A program made the translations under genes and the position numbers. The notes beneath the pieces were generated by a model. That model searched no databases and was not told where the DNA came from. It was given only the letters and a program-made list of their open reading frames with translations. A stretch of DNA of 32,901 bases, from positions 1 to 32,901 of the IMG/VR virus record IMGVR_UViG_3300027971_000012. One strand, written 5' to 3'. Positions 5,612 to 28,389 of the stretch are shown here, in pieces; positions within the stretch are counted from its first letter, which is position 1, and each line of letters starts with the position of its first letter. Origin of the DNA: a virus.

Positions 5612-5845
5612 TCAGAATGGTGCGTCATCAATGGGTAAGCCTTTGAATTCTTCTCTAGGCTTGGGAGTGTTCATATATGCCCAGCCATTCCAGCCGCCAT
5701 CAGGCAGAGGTATGCTGTCAAGTTTAAGCATCAAGCCGTTTTTAGTCTCAATGACCGAGCCGATGGTTTGATAGCGGGATTTTTCCTGACCATCTTTGTT
5801 GGTGTACTTACCTGAAACAATGGTGATTTCGTATACTTTAGACAT
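5612..5845 (-). CDS. Small SSB-like protein with acidic tip
   Basis: The 77 residues look like a compact OB-type beta domain (YEITIVSGKYTNKDGQEKS, then QTIGSVIETKNGLMLKLDSI). They end with Pro-Ile-Asp-Asp-Ala-Pro-Phe, close to the Asp-rich ...DIPF tip that bacterial SSB uses to recruit partners. A single-strand binding role next to an exonuclease and annealing protein is plausible. The protein is shorter than typical SSB (about 150 or more residues). Its start overlaps the end of the exonuclease gene by eight bases. Confidence 0.62.
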   Translation of the reverse strand: MSKVYEITIVSGKYTNKDGQEKSRYQTIGSVIETKNGLMLKLDSIPLPDGGWNGWAYMNTPKPREEFKGLPIDDAPF

Positions 5846-6464
5846 TTTTGACTTTCATTAGTTGGTTTATTTTGGTATCAAGTTCAGCAAGGAATTTGAC
5901 AATTTCATCTTCAATAAGTTTGATATACATATCATCCCTTGGGACACGTTTTACAAACATCTGAAGTTCTGTTGGTAAGCGATTGTCAAAGCTGACAAAA
6001 TCGCACCATTTGCGCCCTGTGCAAGCTATCTGAAACTGCATCTGGGTATAGTATTTATTCGGCACACTTTCAGACAATAAAGTCTCAATATGTGTCGCAG
6101 TATTAGGGCATTTAATCTCAATCAAGCCATCTTCCCCAACAAGGCCATCAGGAGACGCACCAGACATTTCTATTGTGGGATGGGATACAAACCCCACCTC
6201 ATCGACTAAAACGTCATAGCGGGCTTCATAGGCGGCTCTAGCAAGCGGCTCTGTCTCTGTGCCGTGTTGCATGGCAGCGTTGGTGAAACTCTCACCCTTT
6301 TGGCCTGTTAAGCGTTCACAGACAAGTTGCGCCATGTAGTTATCACGGGTTGTTGAGTAGCCTGTCTTGGTTTTGGCAAGCACATCAGCCACACGACTAG
6401 CGGTGACTTTGCCAATGCGGATGTTAAACCAGGCTTCCGATCCTTGTTCCATAAGTTCAATCAT
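5838..6464 (-). CDS. YqaJ-type viral recombinase / lambda-like exonuclease
   Basis: The 208 residues have the YqaJ PD-(D/E)xK pattern: QGSEAWFNIRIGKVTASRVA at about 7-26, HGTETEPLAR at 67-76, SPDGLV with Asp106, then Glu116-x-Lys118 in IEIKCP. Members resect double-stranded DNA 5' to 3' and work with an annealing protein, here probably the Rad52-like protein encoded at 7401-7955. Length matches the family. Start overlaps the upstream gene by four bases (ATGA). Confidence 0.9.
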   Translation of the reverse strand: MIELMEQGSEAWFNIRIGKVTASRVADVLAKTKTGYSTTRDNYMAQLVCERLTGQKGESFTNAAMQHGTETEPLARAAYEARYDVLVDEVGFVSHPTIEMSGASPDGLVGEDGLIEIKCPNTATHIETLLSESVPNKYYTQMQFQIACTGRKWCDFVSFDNRLPTELQMFVKRVPRDDMYIKLIEDEIVKFLAELDTKINQLMKVKNV

Positions 6465-6730
6465 TGGTTTTTCTCCATTAATTTTTCAAGGGCGGTGTCG
6501 ATGGTGTCTCGCACACCTAAACCGATTTCCATGATTTGCATGATTTCTTCATCTGTCAGATTTGCCAAAGGTTTTAAAGTCTGTTGAACTTTTGCCTGTG
6601 CTGCCATGCCATCCTCAAAGCCTTTGCCATATACAGCGTGGTCAGCATCAATCAATTGTTTGATTAGGTTTAAACATTCTTCGCAAACCTTGGTCAAGCT
6701 CTCTACGGCTATTGCACGTTTGATAATCAT
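6461..6730 (-). CDS. Helical hypothetical protein next to dam
   Basis: The 89 residues are predicted largely helical with no recognised motif (KVCEECLNLIKQLIDADHAV near the N-terminus, then LTDEEIMQIMEIGLGVRDTI near the C-terminus). Ribosome site CAAGGAGAAG lies just upstream of ATG 6730, inside a 32-base segment that is nearly identical to one upstream of dam. Two cysteines (C16, C19) are close together. It ends overlapping the exonuclease start. Confidence 0.65.
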   Translation of the reverse strand: MIIKRAIAVESLTKVCEECLNLIKQLIDADHAVYGKGFEDGMAAQAKVQQTLKPLANLTDEEIMQIMEIGLGVRDTIDTALEKLMEKNQ

Positions 6731-6758
6731 GTGTACTTCTCCTTGAGTTTGGCTTCAA
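6727..6758. repeat. Direct repeat copy B, downstream of dam
   Basis: This 32-base segment matches 7174-7205 with only two mismatches. On the minus strand it contains an AAGGAG ribosome site and, just before the next ATG, an untranslated relic reading EAKLKEKYT-stop, equal to the end of the gene upstream of dam (EAKLKEKNT-stop). The repeats flank the dam gene. Confidence 0.85.
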
Positions 6759-7177
6759 CTAAATATCACAACAGCAGACGGAAATGGTGCAGAATTTTTT
6801 GAGCCGCCAAACTTTAATCGGCCTTTGATAAAAGTGATTTGCCCTTTAATTGCGTAGTCATGCCACCATCTCGTGTCAGTTCTTGCAGGAACTAAGCAAA
6901 CAACTATGGTTCCATTACCCGCAGACTCATACGCTTTTTTCATCCATTTACCAATTTCACGCCCATAAGGTGGGTTCATCCAGCACTTGCCAGTCCACAC
7001 TTGTTTAAGCCCATCAGCTTCTTTGTCAAAGTATGTAACGCATTTTGCATTTTCAGCGTCTGCACAAACATCTAACGTAAACGGACCATGCAAAGCATTT
7101 TGTTGGTCAAAAAAATCTTGTGGTGTCGCCCACAAATCTGTGTTGCTTGTTAATAAGCCTTTGTTTATTTTGCTCAT
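6755..7177 (-). CDS. dam: Phage Dam-family DNA N6-adenine methyltransferase
   Basis: The 140 residues match the phage Dam family: LWATPQDFFDQQNALHGPFT at about 15-34, the AdoMet-side motif LDVCAD at 35-40, and the catalytic NPPYG at 68-72. Further on come CLVPARTDTRWWHDY and a terminal beta-strand PSAVVIFS. The family transfers methyl groups to adenine in DNA, often protecting phage DNA from restriction; the site is not deducible. The gene lies between two near-identical 32-base segments, which suggests it was inserted. Start overlaps the upstream stop (ATGA). Confidence 0.88.
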   Translation of the reverse strand: MSKINKGLLTSNTDLWATPQDFFDQQNALHGPFTLDVCADAENAKCVTYFDKEADGLKQVWTGKCWMNPPYGREIGKWMKKAYESAGNGTIVVCLVPARTDTRWWHDYAIKGQITFIKGRLKFGGSKNSAPFPSAVVIFS

Positions 7178-7205
7178 GTGTTCTTCTCCTTGAGCTTGGC
7201 TTCAA
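7174..7205. repeat. Direct repeat copy A, upstream of dam
   Basis: This copy covers the last codons (EAKLKEKNT-stop) of the gene at 7174-7380 and the dam ribosome site and start. It matches 6727-6758 at 30 of 32 positions. Confidence 0.85.
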
Positions 7206-7380
7206 TTGCTTTTGAAAACGCCATATATTGCATGGAATCATATTTTTTATAGACTTCCCAAATCTCATCATCTGTAAGCCCTACCCATGTGCGTTGTGGG
7301 GCATAGTGATAAGGCTGCCTTTTGATTTTGTTTTCACGCTCGATGCGTTCAAACTCATCATCTTCGTCTGTATGGATCAT
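7174..7380 (-). CDS. Small charged hypothetical protein
   Basis: I prefer the ATG at 7380, preceded by AAGGGAAATT. The ATG at 7401 (adding MWRKREI) overlaps the annealing-gene stop as TAATG and is also possible by coupling. The 68-residue form starts MIHTDEDDEFERIERENKIK, has a central WVGLTDDEIWEVYKKYDS segment and ends with a helix AKLKEKNT. It is acidic at the front and basic at the end. Its 3' end is duplicated beyond dam. Function unknown. Confidence 0.66.
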   Translation of the reverse strand: MIHTDEDDEFERIERENKIKRQPYHYAPQRTWVGLTDDEIWEVYKKYDSMQYMAFSKAIEAKLKEKNT

Positions 7381-7400: not shown

Positions 7401-7955
7401 TTAAAGTTTTGCCTTGGCTTTGTCTTTGGCAGCGATGACTTTCATCTGCCAGGCTTTATCGCCATCACAAGCCGCATAAGCGACTTTATAGGCAATCTTG
7501 AGTTCATCTTGTGTGGTGGCGTTGTCGATGGCCAAGAACAAGTCAATCATGGTGTCAGCCTCAATGGTTGACTCAGGCTCTATAAAAGACGGAAGATCGT
7601 CTCCGTTGTAGATGTACAGACCAAGGCCATGCAAACTAAGTGCTTTGGTCATGCACCGCATAATTGCCGTGTTGACCTGAAAGGCATCAGGGTTTAGGAT
7701 GGCTTTGTTGCGGTGATCCATAACGGGCAACTGGCAAGTCATTGGCTTGTCAAACATGGTAACTGTGACCCAGACCATTGCTGTGCCGTTGATGTCCATG
7801 AAACATTTTTCACCGAACATATTTACTACAAAAGTAGCTTTAGGGTCTGCTTTGAGAGCTTCTGCCCATGCCCAAGCCCATGACAGATAAGTCAGATTGG
7901 CTTTTTTCTCTGTGTGTTCGTTGACGTTTAACGTCAATAAATTAGCGACTGTCAT
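7401..7955 (-). CDS. Rad52-like single-strand annealing protein (DUF1071/Sak-type)
   Basis: The 184 residues begin with a DUF1071-like core: LTYLSWAWAWAEALKADP at about 22-39, FVVNMFGEKCFMDINGTAMV and TMFDKPMTCQLPVMDHRNKA. A basic/Asn-rich stretch follows (FQVNTAIMRCMTKALSLHGL at about 92-111), and then LGLYIYNGDDLP. The family belongs to the Rad52-type annealing proteins of phages, which pair single strands made by an exonuclease such as the YqaJ gene here. The C-terminal 50 residues are a charged helical tail. A 30-residue membrane peptide gene ends directly before the start. Confidence 0.82.
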   Translation of the reverse strand: MTVANLLTLNVNEHTEKKANLTYLSWAWAWAEALKADPKATFVVNMFGEKCFMDINGTAMVWVTVTMFDKPMTCQLPVMDHRNKAILNPDAFQVNTAIMRCMTKALSLHGLGLYIYNGDDLPSFIEPESTIEADTMIDLFLAIDNATTQDELKIAYKVAYAACDGDKAWQMKVIAAKDKAKAKL

Positions 7956-10441: not shown

Positions 10442-10685
10442 CGCAAATGCGATACAAGTAGTCTCTGCATTACGAGCCGCTGGCGCTTATGTGTGGATTA
10501 TTGGCTTACCCGTTGACCTTTTGGTTGGATATAAGGGACACACATTCCTTATGGAGATCAAAGATGGCCCTAAAAAGCGTTTAACAAAGCTACAAGCCGA
10601 CTTTTTTGAAAATTGGTCAGGTAGTACTTTATGCCGTGTTGACGGCCCTGAAGCGGCTTTAAGAATGATTGAGGTAGTCAAATGA
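10419..10685 (+). CDS. VRR-NUC-like PD-(D/E)xK nuclease
   Basis: The 88 residues match the compact VRR-NUC fold: VDANAIQVVSALRAAGAYVW helix, PVDLLVGYKGHTFLMEIKDG with the conserved Asp33 then Glu46-x-Lys48, and a closing helix LTKLQADFFENW. Related enzymes resolve or cleave branched DNA. Its start overlaps the upstream gene by 23 bases and its stop overlaps the PAPS-reductase-like start (ATGA). Confidence 0.8.
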   Translation: MRRAARVDANAIQVVSALRAAGAYVWIIGLPVDLLVGYKGHTFLMEIKDGPKKRLTKLQADFFENWSGSTLCRVDGPEAALRMIEVVK

Positions 10686-11407
10686 GAATCGTATGTTGGT
10701 TTTCCTGTGGTGCGGCTAGTGCTGTGGCAACAAAACTGGCAATAGCCGATAACGCAGGCAAGTTGCCTTTAGTCATTGCTTACACCGAAGTCAAAGAAGA
10801 ACATCCCGACAACAAGCGTTTTCTTAAAGATTGTGAACAATGGTTTGGTCAAGAAATACAAATCTTAGGGAATGACTTTTACGATAGGTCAATTTATCGA
10901 GTATTTGAGAAGAATTACATTCGCACACCCAAGGGCGCACCATGCACCAGGGCTTTGAAAAAGCAGATTAGAGAGCGCTTTGAACAGCCTACCGATAGGC
11001 AAGTCTTTGGTTATACGGCTGAAGAACAGGCACGACTAGACCGATTTATTGATGTCAACAATGACGTAAACATTTGGACACCATTGATTGACAAGGGTTT
11101 AAGCAAAGAAGATTGCTTAGGTATGCTTGAAAATGCCAACATCGAATTGCCTGAGATGTACCGACTTGGGTATCACAACAACAATTGCATTGGTTGCGTA
11201 AAAGGCGGGATGGGTTATTGGAACAAGATAAAAGTAGATTTTCCTGAACATTTTGATCGCATGGCTAAGTTAGAAAGGTTTAAAAGCCAAACTATCTTTA
11301 AAGACAGATATTTAGACGAATTAAAACCAACAGACGGCAATTACCCTGAAGAACAACATATTGAGTGTTCTATTTTCTGTCAACTTGCAGAGGAAGAATA
11401 CAAATGA
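10682..11407 (+). CDS. PAPS-reductase-like PP-loop protein
   Basis: The 241 residues contain a PP-loop variant FSCGAASAVA (about 7-16) in place of the usual SGGxDS. They also contain APCTRALKKQIRERF at 87-101, and cysteines at C169 and C172 (CIGC) plus C229 and C233 that could bind a metal or Fe-S cluster. The fold is that of the PAPS reductase/ATP-pyrophosphatase superfamily, which includes thionucleotide and DNA-phosphorothioation enzymes. Phage members of this type are common but their reaction is not established to me. Flanked by a nuclease and NinB in overlapping order. Confidence 0.78.
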   Translation: MRIVCWFSCGAASAVATKLAIADNAGKLPLVIAYTEVKEEHPDNKRFLKDCEQWFGQEIQILGNDFYDRSIYRVFEKNYIRTPKGAPCTRALKKQIRERFEQPTDRQVFGYTAEEQARLDRFIDVNNDVNIWTPLIDKGLSKEDCLGMLENANIELPEMYRLGYHNNNCIGCVKGGMGYWNKIKVDFPEHFDRMAKLERFKSQTIFKDRYLDELKPTDGNYPEEQHIECSIFCQLAEEEYK

Positions 11408-25806: not shown

Positions 25807-28389
25807 ATGGCTTTCTTATGCCCACAACCCAAAGCCCCCGCAACGCCTGATTACGCTGCGGCAGCTACTGCTCAAGGTCAAGCAAACGTAGAAACGGCCA
25901 AAACCCAAGGGTATTTAAACAACCCTAACGTGATTGGCCCGTTGGGTAGTCAGACGGTCATATTTGACCCTGTTACAAATCAGCCAACAATAATGCAGAA
26001 CTTGACCCCAACGGCTCAAGCTACGTTGGAGGCACAGCAAAGAGTTCAGCAAGGCATGGCAAGCCTTGGTGAAAAGGGTTTATCAAGCGCATCAGACATT
26101 ATCAGCAAGCCGTTTCAGTACACAGGGCCAGGTGGTATTTTCTCACTCGCTAATTCGGGAAATATTCAAGGTTCGCCTGACTTAACAGGGATGGGTTCAG
26201 CTAGTGGTGGATTTACGGGCGATAAAGCCTACGGCAATGTCACGGGTGGAACTGCTCAAGGAAATGTTCAAAGCGGTCAAGCATATGGTTCTGTTGATAG
26301 TGGTTTAGCGCAAGGTTCTGTTGCTAATCCTCAAGCAAGTGCCAATTTCCAAGGCGGTCAAGCCGTTGGCGGTGTTTATGGTGGAACTGCTAGAGGTAAC
26401 TTCCAAGGTGGAACGGCAACTGGTGGCGTAAGTGGCCCAACTCTGCAAAATAGCTACGGCAATTATGGACAAGTTCAAAGTGCGCCTGATATGGGTGCAT
26501 ACGGTTCTGCCTCATCTATTGGCGCAGGTCAATATGGATTGTCAGGCGGCATTAACCCATCTCAATATGGCACGGCACAAGGCGGTGTTGAGGGTGTTAA
26601 TCTTCAGCAGTCACTTGGTAACATTGGCCAAATCAATCAAAACCTGAACGCCAATAATTACTTGGCAAACAATCAGTTGAATTTGAGCAATGTGGCTCAA
26701 ATGCCTGTTAATGCGGGTACGACAGGCCAAGCGGCAATCATGTCTCGGCTTGCGCCTCAGTTGGAGCGCCAACAAAAGCTGACTGCTCAGAGTTTGGCCA
26801 ACCAAGGCTTAGTGCCTGGCGGTGAAGCCTACACAAACGCTATGCGTGACCAAAGCCAACAGCAAAATGATCTGTTGACCCAAGCGGCTTTGCAAGGTAT
26901 TAGTTTGGATACTGCGGCCAATCAACAAGGCTTTAATCAAGCGTTGGCCTCTGGTCAATTTGGCAATACAGGCATACAGCAGAACTTTGGTAATGCTTTG
27001 GCGGCTCAACAAGCTCAAAATGCGGCTCAAGGCCAAGGCTTTAACCAACAATTGCAATCAGGTCAGTTTGGCAATCAGGCTCAATTGGCAAGTTTTGGTG
27101 TCAATTTGCAGAATCAGCAAGCGGCCAACCAAGCGATTGCACAAAATTATGGTCAAGGTTTGGGTGCGCAACAATTGCAAAATCAAGCTGTTGCACAAAA
27201 TTTTGGACAAGGTTTGAGCGCATCTAATGCGGCAAATGCGGCAATTGCTCAGAATCAAAATGCGGCATTGCAACAACAATCGGCTGCAAACCAAGCTCAA
27301 GCGCAACAGTATGGACAGGCACAAGGTAATGCTCAGTTTGCCAATCAAGCTCAATTAGCAGGATTTGGTGCAAATTTGCAAAACCAACAAGCGCAAAACC
27401 AAGCTATTGCTCAAAATTCTGCACAAGGATTGGCGCAACAACAGGCTTACAACGCTGCTATTGGGCAGAACTTTGGCCAAAACTTGCAAAATCAACAAGC
27501 CTACAATGCCGCAATAGGTCAAAATTACCAACAAGGCATGGGTCAGCAAGCGGCTCAAAATCAAGCTGCGGCTCAGAATTTTGGTCAAAACGTAACTGCT
27601 CAACAGTTGGCAAATCAAGCCGTTGCCCAAAATTTTGGCCAAAACGTAACGAATCAGCAACTTGGAAATCAAGCTACACAGCAGAATTTCAGTAATGCGT
27701 TGGCTGCACAACAAGCTCAAAACCAAGCGATTGCACAGAACTTTGGTCAAAGCGTTACGGCTCAACAACTTGCAAATGCGGCTGCGGCTCAAAATTATCA
27801 GCAAGGCATGGGGACGCAATCAATGCAAAACCAAGCGCTTGCGCAAAATCAAGCCATTGCCGCCCAACAACAACAATTGGCAAATGCCGCGCAACTTCAA
27901 CAGTACAACCAAAACCTTGGTGCGGCTCAGTTTGGCAATCAGGCGGCCACTCAAGAGTTGCAGAAACAACTTGCTTTGCGTAATCAGCCTTTGAATGAAA
28001 TCACGGGCTTGATGAGTGGCTCACAATTGCAGATGCCTCAATTCCAAGGTTACAACCCAACAAACATTGCGGCAGCCCCGATATTTGCGGGTGCGCAAGC
28101 ACAGGGTAATGCGGCATTGCAGAACTATGGTATTGCGCAATCAGGCGCTAATGCAACAACAAGCGGATTGTTTAATCTTGCGGGTGCGGCAATGATGTCT
28201 GACCGCAGATTGAAGTCAAACATTGAGCGCATTGGCACTCACAAACTTGGCATTGGAATTTATGAGTACGACATCTTTGGTGAGCGTCAGCAAGGTGTGA
28301 TGGCTGATGAAGTTGAGAAGGTCATGCCTGAAGCTGTCTTGATGCACCCAAGCGGTTACAAAATGGTCAACTACGGTTTATTGGGGTAA
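25807..28389 (+). CDS. Large repeat-rich virion protein with S74-type C-terminus
   Basis: The 860 residues have: an N-terminal region (about 1-110) with predicted helices; residues 141-212 as eight 9-residue Gly-rich repeats of form A-x-G-N-V-x-G-G-x; a middle domain; residues 370-730 as twenty 18-residue repeats (A-I-A-Q-N-F-G-Q-x-L-x-x-Q-Q-x-x-N-Q); and a C-terminal ~65 residues MMSDRRLKSNIERIGTHKLG that match the S74 chaperone. The C-terminal part is expected to trimerise and perhaps be cleaved before Asp. It stands where podoviruses place internal virion (ejection) proteins, so could be an ejection protein or a helical fibre. Confidence 0.75.
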   Translation: MAFLCPQPKAPATPDYAAAATAQGQANVETAKTQGYLNNPNVIGPLGSQTVIFDPVTNQPTIMQNLTPTAQATLEAQQRVQQGMASLGEKGLSSASDIISKPFQYTGPGGIFSLANSGNIQGSPDLTGMGSASGGFTGDKAYGNVTGGTAQGNVQSGQAYGSVDSGLAQGSVANPQASANFQGGQAVGGVYGGTARGNFQGGTATGGVSGPTLQNSYGNYGQVQSAPDMGAYGSASSIGAGQYGLSGGINPSQYGTAQGGVEGVNLQQSLGNIGQINQNLNANNYLANNQLNLSNVAQMPVNAGTTGQAAIMSRLAPQLERQQKLTAQSLANQGLVPGGEAYTNAMRDQSQQQNDLLTQAALQGISLDTAANQQGFNQALASGQFGNTGIQQNFGNALAAQQAQNAAQGQGFNQQLQSGQFGNQAQLASFGVNLQNQQAANQAIAQNYGQGLGAQQLQNQAVAQNFGQGLSASNAANAAIAQNQNAALQQQSAANQAQAQQYGQAQGNAQFANQAQLAGFGANLQNQQAQNQAIAQNSAQGLAQQQAYNAAIGQNFGQNLQNQQAYNAAIGQNYQQGMGQQAAQNQAAAQNFGQNVTAQQLANQAVAQNFGQNVTNQQLGNQATQQNFSNALAAQQAQNQAIAQNFGQSVTAQQLANAAAAQNYQQGMGTQSMQNQALAQNQAIAAQQQQLANAAQLQQYNQNLGAAQFGNQAATQELQKQLALRNQPLNEITGLMSGSQLQMPQFQGYNPTNIAAAPIFAGAQAQGNAALQNYGIAQSGANATTSGLFNLAGAAMMSDRRLKSNIERIGTHKLGIGIYEYDIFGERQQGVMADEVEKVMPEAVLMHPSGYKMVNYGLLG
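26227..26442 (+). repeat. Eight tandem 27-base repeats (9-residue units)
   Basis: Units read AYGNVTGGT, AQGNVQSGQ, AYGSVDSGL, AQGSVANPQ, ASANFQGGQ, AVGGVYGGT, ARGNFQGGT and ATGGVSGPT. Gly at position 3, a hydrophobic residue at 5 and Gly at 7 are most constant. The units suggest a regular beta structure. Confidence 0.85.
26914..27996 (+). repeat. Twenty tandem 54-base repeats (18-residue units)
   Basis: Twenty units, one with a single extra residue, span residues 370-730 without a break. Best-conserved positions are A1, I/V/A2, A3, Q4, N5, F/Y6, L/V10, Q13-Q14 and N17. Examples are AVAQNFGQNVTNQQLGNQ and AIAQNFGQSVTAQQLANA. The DNA repeats are diverged, so the array looks old and maintained. 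Confidence 0.88.

Follow-up and report, generated by a model that had tools for sequence, protein, structure and literature searches.

The window, by which we mean the whole stretch of DNA analysed, is a phage contig of 32.9 kb. The 51 bases at its start are repeated identically at its end, in keeping with a circular or terminally redundant genome. The minus strand of the window carries, in this order, a gene for a Sak single-strand annealing protein, a small gene, the DNA methyltransferase gene dam, an 89-aa gene and a YqaJ exonuclease gene (Table 1). The dam product also matches phrog_111, and its TIGR01712 score lies under the cut-off of that model. The small gene ends in a tail domain (QRTWVGLTDDE..AIEAKLKEKNT-stop) that is absent from dam-less relatives, and searches of Pfam, PHROGs and NCBIfam returned no named family above cut-off for either the tail domain or the small gene. 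The Sak-YqaJ interval (7401 to 6464 in the window, loci L001-L153 in relatives) constitutes a variable slot of 26-1137 bp harbouring differing small genes, and approximately 66 distinct intervals were surveyed. Elsewhere in the window, 54-bp periodic repeats at 26913-27890 lie within a Q/N-rich 860-aa ORF (25807-28389), the C-terminus of which looks like a putative intramolecular chaperone domain, and a phosphoadenosine phosphosulfate reductase-like gene occupies 10682-11407 (phrog_424, E 3.6e-47).

Table 1. Features in and around the Sak-YqaJ slot of the window.
Feature	Position	Strand	Remarks
Sak single-strand annealing protein	7401..7955	-	PF06378, E 4.1e-40; left border of variable slot
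Small gene, 75 aa	7174..7401	-	N-terminus common to dam-less relatives
Recently imported or exchanged block	6749..7319	-	1 difference in 571 bp as compared to sibling L084
Upstream linker	7174..7205	-	last codons of small gene (EAKLKEKNT-stop), Shine-Dalgarno site (AAGGAG 7186-7191), dam start (ATG 7175-7177); stop/start overlap ATGA
dam, phage N6-adenine DNA methyltransferase, 140 aa	6755..7177	-	PF05869, E 2.3e-27; NPPY motif
Downstream linker	6727..6758	-	5' half non-coding (relic), then start of 89-aa gene; dam TGA 6755-6757, AAGGAG 6739-6744, ATG of 89-aa gene 6728-6730
89-aa gene, no assigned function	6461..6730	-	next after downstream linker
Possible diverged linker cousin (tentative)	6461..6490	-	next junction, ..KLMEKNQ-stop; 19/30 by eye
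YqaJ exonuclease	5838..6464	-	PF09588, E 1.8e-30; right border of variable slot

The two copies of the segment flanking dam, here termed the linker (TTGAAGCCAAGCTCAAGGAGAAGAACACATGA and TTGAAGCCAAACTCAAGGAGAAGTACACATGA), are identical at 30 of 32 bases and lie 447 bp apart, as compared to an expectation of approximately 2e-7 such direct pairs in a random 32.9-kb sequence of the same composition; in the sibling contig L084 the copies agree at 32 of 32 bases. The repeat was originally predicted from the letters of the window, and the account then given of its two halves is borne out: the upstream copy is a true gene end plus ribosome site, representing the end of the 75-aa ORF (..AIEAKLKEKNT-stop) and overlapping the dam ATG, and the downstream copy is a non-coding relic placed before the next ATG, untranslated in the EAKLKEK frame, of which only three codons are open. 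Two points were absent from that prediction, namely that the stop codon of dam is itself the TGA of the downstream TTGAAGCC, and that AAGGAG is 8 nt distant from the ATG in both copies.

Contigs encoding a Sak protein 95-98% identical to that of the window lack dam, and in these relatives the small gene ends in another tail (e.g. ..AIRARGNT-stop, not EAKLKEKNT-stop) and has the 89-aa gene, or a shorter homologue, as its immediate downstream neighbour. Among the approximately 66 distinct Sak-YqaJ intervals, dam occupies the slot only in the window and in contig 3300027708_001017 (L069/L084/L214). The window and L084 differ by 5.1% in Sak, 6.3% in the 89-aa gene and 8.8% in YqaJ as compared to one base in 423 in dam, and from 7319 down to 6749 a single difference was observed in 571 bp, against approximately 5-9% in the flanking genes outside this block; under a divergence of 6%, one difference or none would occur with a probability of approximately 2e-14. 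Differences restart at 7320, near the point where the small gene departs from that of the dam-less relatives, and at 6748, within the downstream linker. Owing to this disparity between block and flanks, dam must have been recently imported or exchanged in the window lineage, and as the small genes of dam-less relatives end in another tail, the imported block comprises the small-gene tail domain, the upstream linker, dam and the second linker (approximately 6749-7319). In this lineage the upstream copy is thus probably a newcomer rather than long-resident sequence. The original prediction that dam entered by recombination at the short segment therefore stands in part: dam represents an insertion when compared with near kin, in which the small gene runs directly into the 89-residue gene as foreseen (though with a differing tail), and the near kin do not all carry dam at a divergence equal to that of the rest of the genome. 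The part that fails is the notion of one copy becoming two, as the small-gene tail and upstream linker came in too; in addition, a pattern search for the expected dam-less arrangement, a single linker copy directly ahead of the 89-residue gene, matched nothing but the dam-bearing contig.

The linker recurs far beyond this slot. The 30-mer GAAGCCAARCTCAAGGAGAAGAACACATGA, which consists of a gene end, a Shine-Dalgarno site and an overlapping stop/start, was found exactly in at least 120 IMG/VR stretches, and the gene whose ATG it contains differs between copies, 237 downstream genes falling into 130 clusters and thus at least 130 protein groups. The upstream gene mostly has the C-terminus QR.WVGLTDEE...(variable)...AIEAKLKEKNT-stop, with the W[VQ]GL motif in 159/205. 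A set of Sak, YqaJ and dam loci collected independently of the linker (1.35 Mb, the loci partly overlapping) contained 34 copies as compared to zero in the reversed sequence. At 85 EAKLKEKNT-stop tails collected with a codon-neutral pattern, codon choice was nearly uniform (AAG 85/85, GAA 82/85, AAC 82/85, ACA 81/85, GAG 77/85 and GCC 73/85), every preferred codon being well over its background use in the same contigs, even GAA and GCC, which lie beyond the Shine-Dalgarno core, with p values of 1e-7 to 1e-38 that are only indicative owing to the non-independence of related contigs. Such codon choice indicates that the linker is conserved as DNA and not merely as protein, with conservation reaching upstream of the Shine-Dalgarno core, while part of it may be protein-level or translational, as 243/249 copies are in frame with the upstream ORF and end it. 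The tail domain of approximately 43 aa (linker loci L155-L337; 7174-7310 in the window) comprises two DNA-conserved blocks, TGGGTNGGGCTGACG.. and the linker, separated by a middle of approximately 20-25 residues in which the copies can hardly be aligned with one another. Another recurrent tail family, ..AIRARG(NT/QA/EA)-stop with AGCAAGGGG before ATGA (L001 and many fetched loci), likewise sits ahead of many different genes.

Whole records contain one to three linker copies in a single orientation per record, and 16 dam-bearing control phages contained none. Contigs of bacterial genomes in GTDB yielded only two matches, and INPHARED five phage records, those read being from Dishui Lake and Manatee Spring water; the linker is present in DSL-LC04 and DSL-LC05, two phages whose genomes were deposited as complete. 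Nearly all linker sequences are metagenome contigs. As matches among reference genomes and named phages are so few, the carriers represent a phage pool that is for the most part uncultured and apparently of freshwater origin. No stable fold of the linker was predicted with RNA parameters (z -0.9, -0.7 and +1.5), an Rfam search with it gave no match, and a literature search on the peptide EAKLKEKN retrieved no paper mentioning it.

Dam homologues in L343, L344 and L347 also lie between linker copies, with differing neighbours, the copy after dam being partial in L343; in L349 only the 3' half of the linker is present, on both sides. The phages L344 and L347 are otherwise unrelated and share a 474-bp linker-dam-linker block, 96.4% identical, which extends from the GAAGCC of the first linker to the ATGA of the second, all remaining matches between the two being of linker against linker. 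As in the window, the copy that follows dam in L344 does not code for protein and is nearly perfect. Dam moves as a linker-dam-linker unit, in the window lineage by recent import or exchange, and it also lies between two linker copies in unrelated phages whose homology stops at the linker edges. A gene of 236-238 aa (MTTQLVRDSMKLMADAGVDI..) has a linker upstream in several contexts (L249:486-1216, L175 and L263), and in L249 it is followed by a non-coding linker copy, representing a second dam-like cargo. Pairs of relatives with and without a given gene revealed same-slot insertions of gene plus linker (L093/L050, L029/L014 and L010/L020); as the insertion target of L093 and L029 consisted of the ATGA overlap only, with no full linker, linker-linker pairing cannot explain every event. 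The dam homologues of L348, L351, L355 and L357 have another, phage-specific ribosome-site sequence on both sides (e.g. AAGGAGAAGTAAATG and GGAGAGAACAATGA), as though genes were generally framed by matching ribosome sites.

Other genes between such segments were likewise found in number, and linker junctions coincide with mosaic breakpoints. In pairs of joints with a common downstream gene, identity at the 5' edge of the linker drops to that of randomly chosen linker pairs, and in pairs with a common upstream gene it is at background from the first bases past the start overlap, that is, at the 3' edge; example pairs show up to 99.7% identity on one side and no detectable homology on the other. 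In a test at ≥85% identity, far-side homology was lost at 0.86 and 0.84 of linker joints as compared to 0.46 and 0.47 of controls, for which same-strand stop/start joints without the linker, no more than 3 kb away, were taken (Fisher p 0.014 and 0.038, computed on pairs whose counts are small and whose gene types are incompletely matched). The linker combines a gene-junction location, differing neighbours and coinciding mosaic breakpoints, three marks of a boundary sequence.

We consider it probable that the linker is a gene-boundary sequence by means of which accessory genes move as gene-plus-linker units exchanged by recombination at the joints. A joint of 30-32 bp would end the upstream frame, carry a strong Shine-Dalgarno site and give the overlapping start of the next gene, so that recombination there would restore stop, ribosome site and start together, and the incoming gene and its neighbour would stay translatable within the operon; accessory genes of a large phage pool could travel in this manner. 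In the window, tail domain, linker, dam and linker would have replaced the tail of the small gene in the Sak-YqaJ slot. The linker presumably acts as a ribosome-binding site, and we infer that exchange is initiated by linker copies pairing with each other and not by chance joins that selection then retains. In length the linker matches the minimum of 30 bp given for Red-beta recombination (PMC3945230), and the window phage encodes its own Sak protein. Linker records were not enriched in Sak, ERF or RecT (6/34 as compared to 8/16, if anything the reverse), which leaves as candidate agents of the exchange the RecA protein of the host, annealing proteins of other kinds, and chance joining with selection.

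The last of these, in its full form, is a possible though clearly less likely account of the whole pattern: genes would insert unguided, only joints with stop, ribosome site and start in register would survive, and the linker would be carried along as the 3' end of a gene without guiding recombination. The ATGA-to-ATGA insertions of L093/L050 and L029/L014, with no full linker at the empty site, and the lack of annealing-protein enrichment agree with it, and illegitimate joining was favoured at most boundaries in mycobacteriophage work (PMC3029335). Both the presence of dam with linkers on either side in several contexts and the breakpoint excess of 0.85 over 0.46 are, however, simpler if the linker is a site of homology.

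It is unlikely, and already disfavoured by these data, that the copies resemble each other through convergence alone, each phage group favouring one strong ribosome site and start overlap and the copies around dam arising without recombination. AAGGAG and ACATGA are indeed the most constrained parts (AAG 85/85, ACA 81/85), and the dam homologues of L348, L351 and L355 are flanked by ribosome sites that differ from the linker yet match each other. The non-coding copy downstream of dam nevertheless retains GAAGCCAARCTC upstream of its ribosome site (in the window and L214, and nearly so in L221/L344), a stretch expected to be free of both coding and Shine-Dalgarno selection; moreover, flank identity stops exactly at the linker, and divergence is far lower in the dam block than in its flanks. 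A tandem duplication, in place, of the small-gene end, with dam filling the space later or being ancestral, would account for two near-identical copies 447 bp apart, identical throughout in L084, and is very improbable given that the EAKLKEKNT tail is wholly absent from dam-less relatives and that unrelated phages contain this very linker-dam-linker unit; for the wider pattern it is largely refuted by L343, L344 and L347. Usual final assembly k-mers are longer than 30 bp, and although nearly all loci are metagenome contigs, chimeric assembly at short repeats is hardly credible in view of this length, the same dam block in separate records (window and L084), the linkers in the complete genomes of DSL-LC04 and DSL-LC05, and reading frames unbroken across the joints.

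How phage mosaics are joined has been debated for decades, between short shared boundary sequences on the one hand and chance joining with selection on the other, and to our knowledge few concrete boundary sequences are known in phages. A 30-bp sequence with hundreds of precise-edged natural joints makes this question testable by counting and by experiment, and gene swaps exactly at the linker, such as that of a DNA methylase, afford an unusually clear view of phage genome reshuffling. The linker may, in addition, offer a ready-made natural element with which to extend an operon by further genes, each supplied with a working ribosome site.

Integron gene cassettes resemble the linker units on paper, each comprising one gene plus a 3' site (attC), with sites on both sides after insertion, but no attC-like folding of the linker was identified, and the resemblance is one of analogy only; having no stable predicted fold, it was rejected as an attC site. 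We attach little probability to a dedicated, integron-like gene-cassette exchange of freshwater phages, in which the linker would be the site of a specific enzyme and the joints translation-ready. The Start-Associated Sequences (SAS) of cluster K mycobacteriophages, 13 bp in length (GGGATAGGAGCCC) and located just before start codons, are accompanied by inverted repeats in about half of the genes with SAS and are tied to one phage cluster (PMC3203893). Like the linker, they are short asymmetric repeats, conserved as DNA, that precede the starts of many unrelated genes. SAS occur in mostly one orientation, and linker records have one to three copies, in one orientation within each record; the linker, in contrast, is 30 bp long, mostly coding in the upstream gene and without stable RNA structure, and it does not conform to the SAS consensus in sequence or length. 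In the Island3 gene 68 insertion of cluster I mycobacteriophages, a single case read as recombination between repeats, the 3' end of the inserted gene repeats approximately 50 bp of the 3' end of the upstream gene (PMC3029335). The C-terminal 18 residues of gene 68 match those of its upstream gene, whereas the downstream copy at dam is non-coding. Exchange by homologous recombination at short conserved gene-joint sequences has long been proposed for lambdoid phages (work cited in PMC3029335). As far as that citing account describes them, the lambdoid boundary sequences are a close parallel in kind, being short homologous sequences at gene joints where modules are exchanged. Lambdoid boundary sequences are generally regarded as local to one group, while the linker is common to many unrelated phages, precedes at least 130 different gene groups, and combines C-terminal codons with a ribosome site and start. 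We judge the linker to be a new and unusually widespread case of the boundary sequences proposed to promote phage mosaicism.
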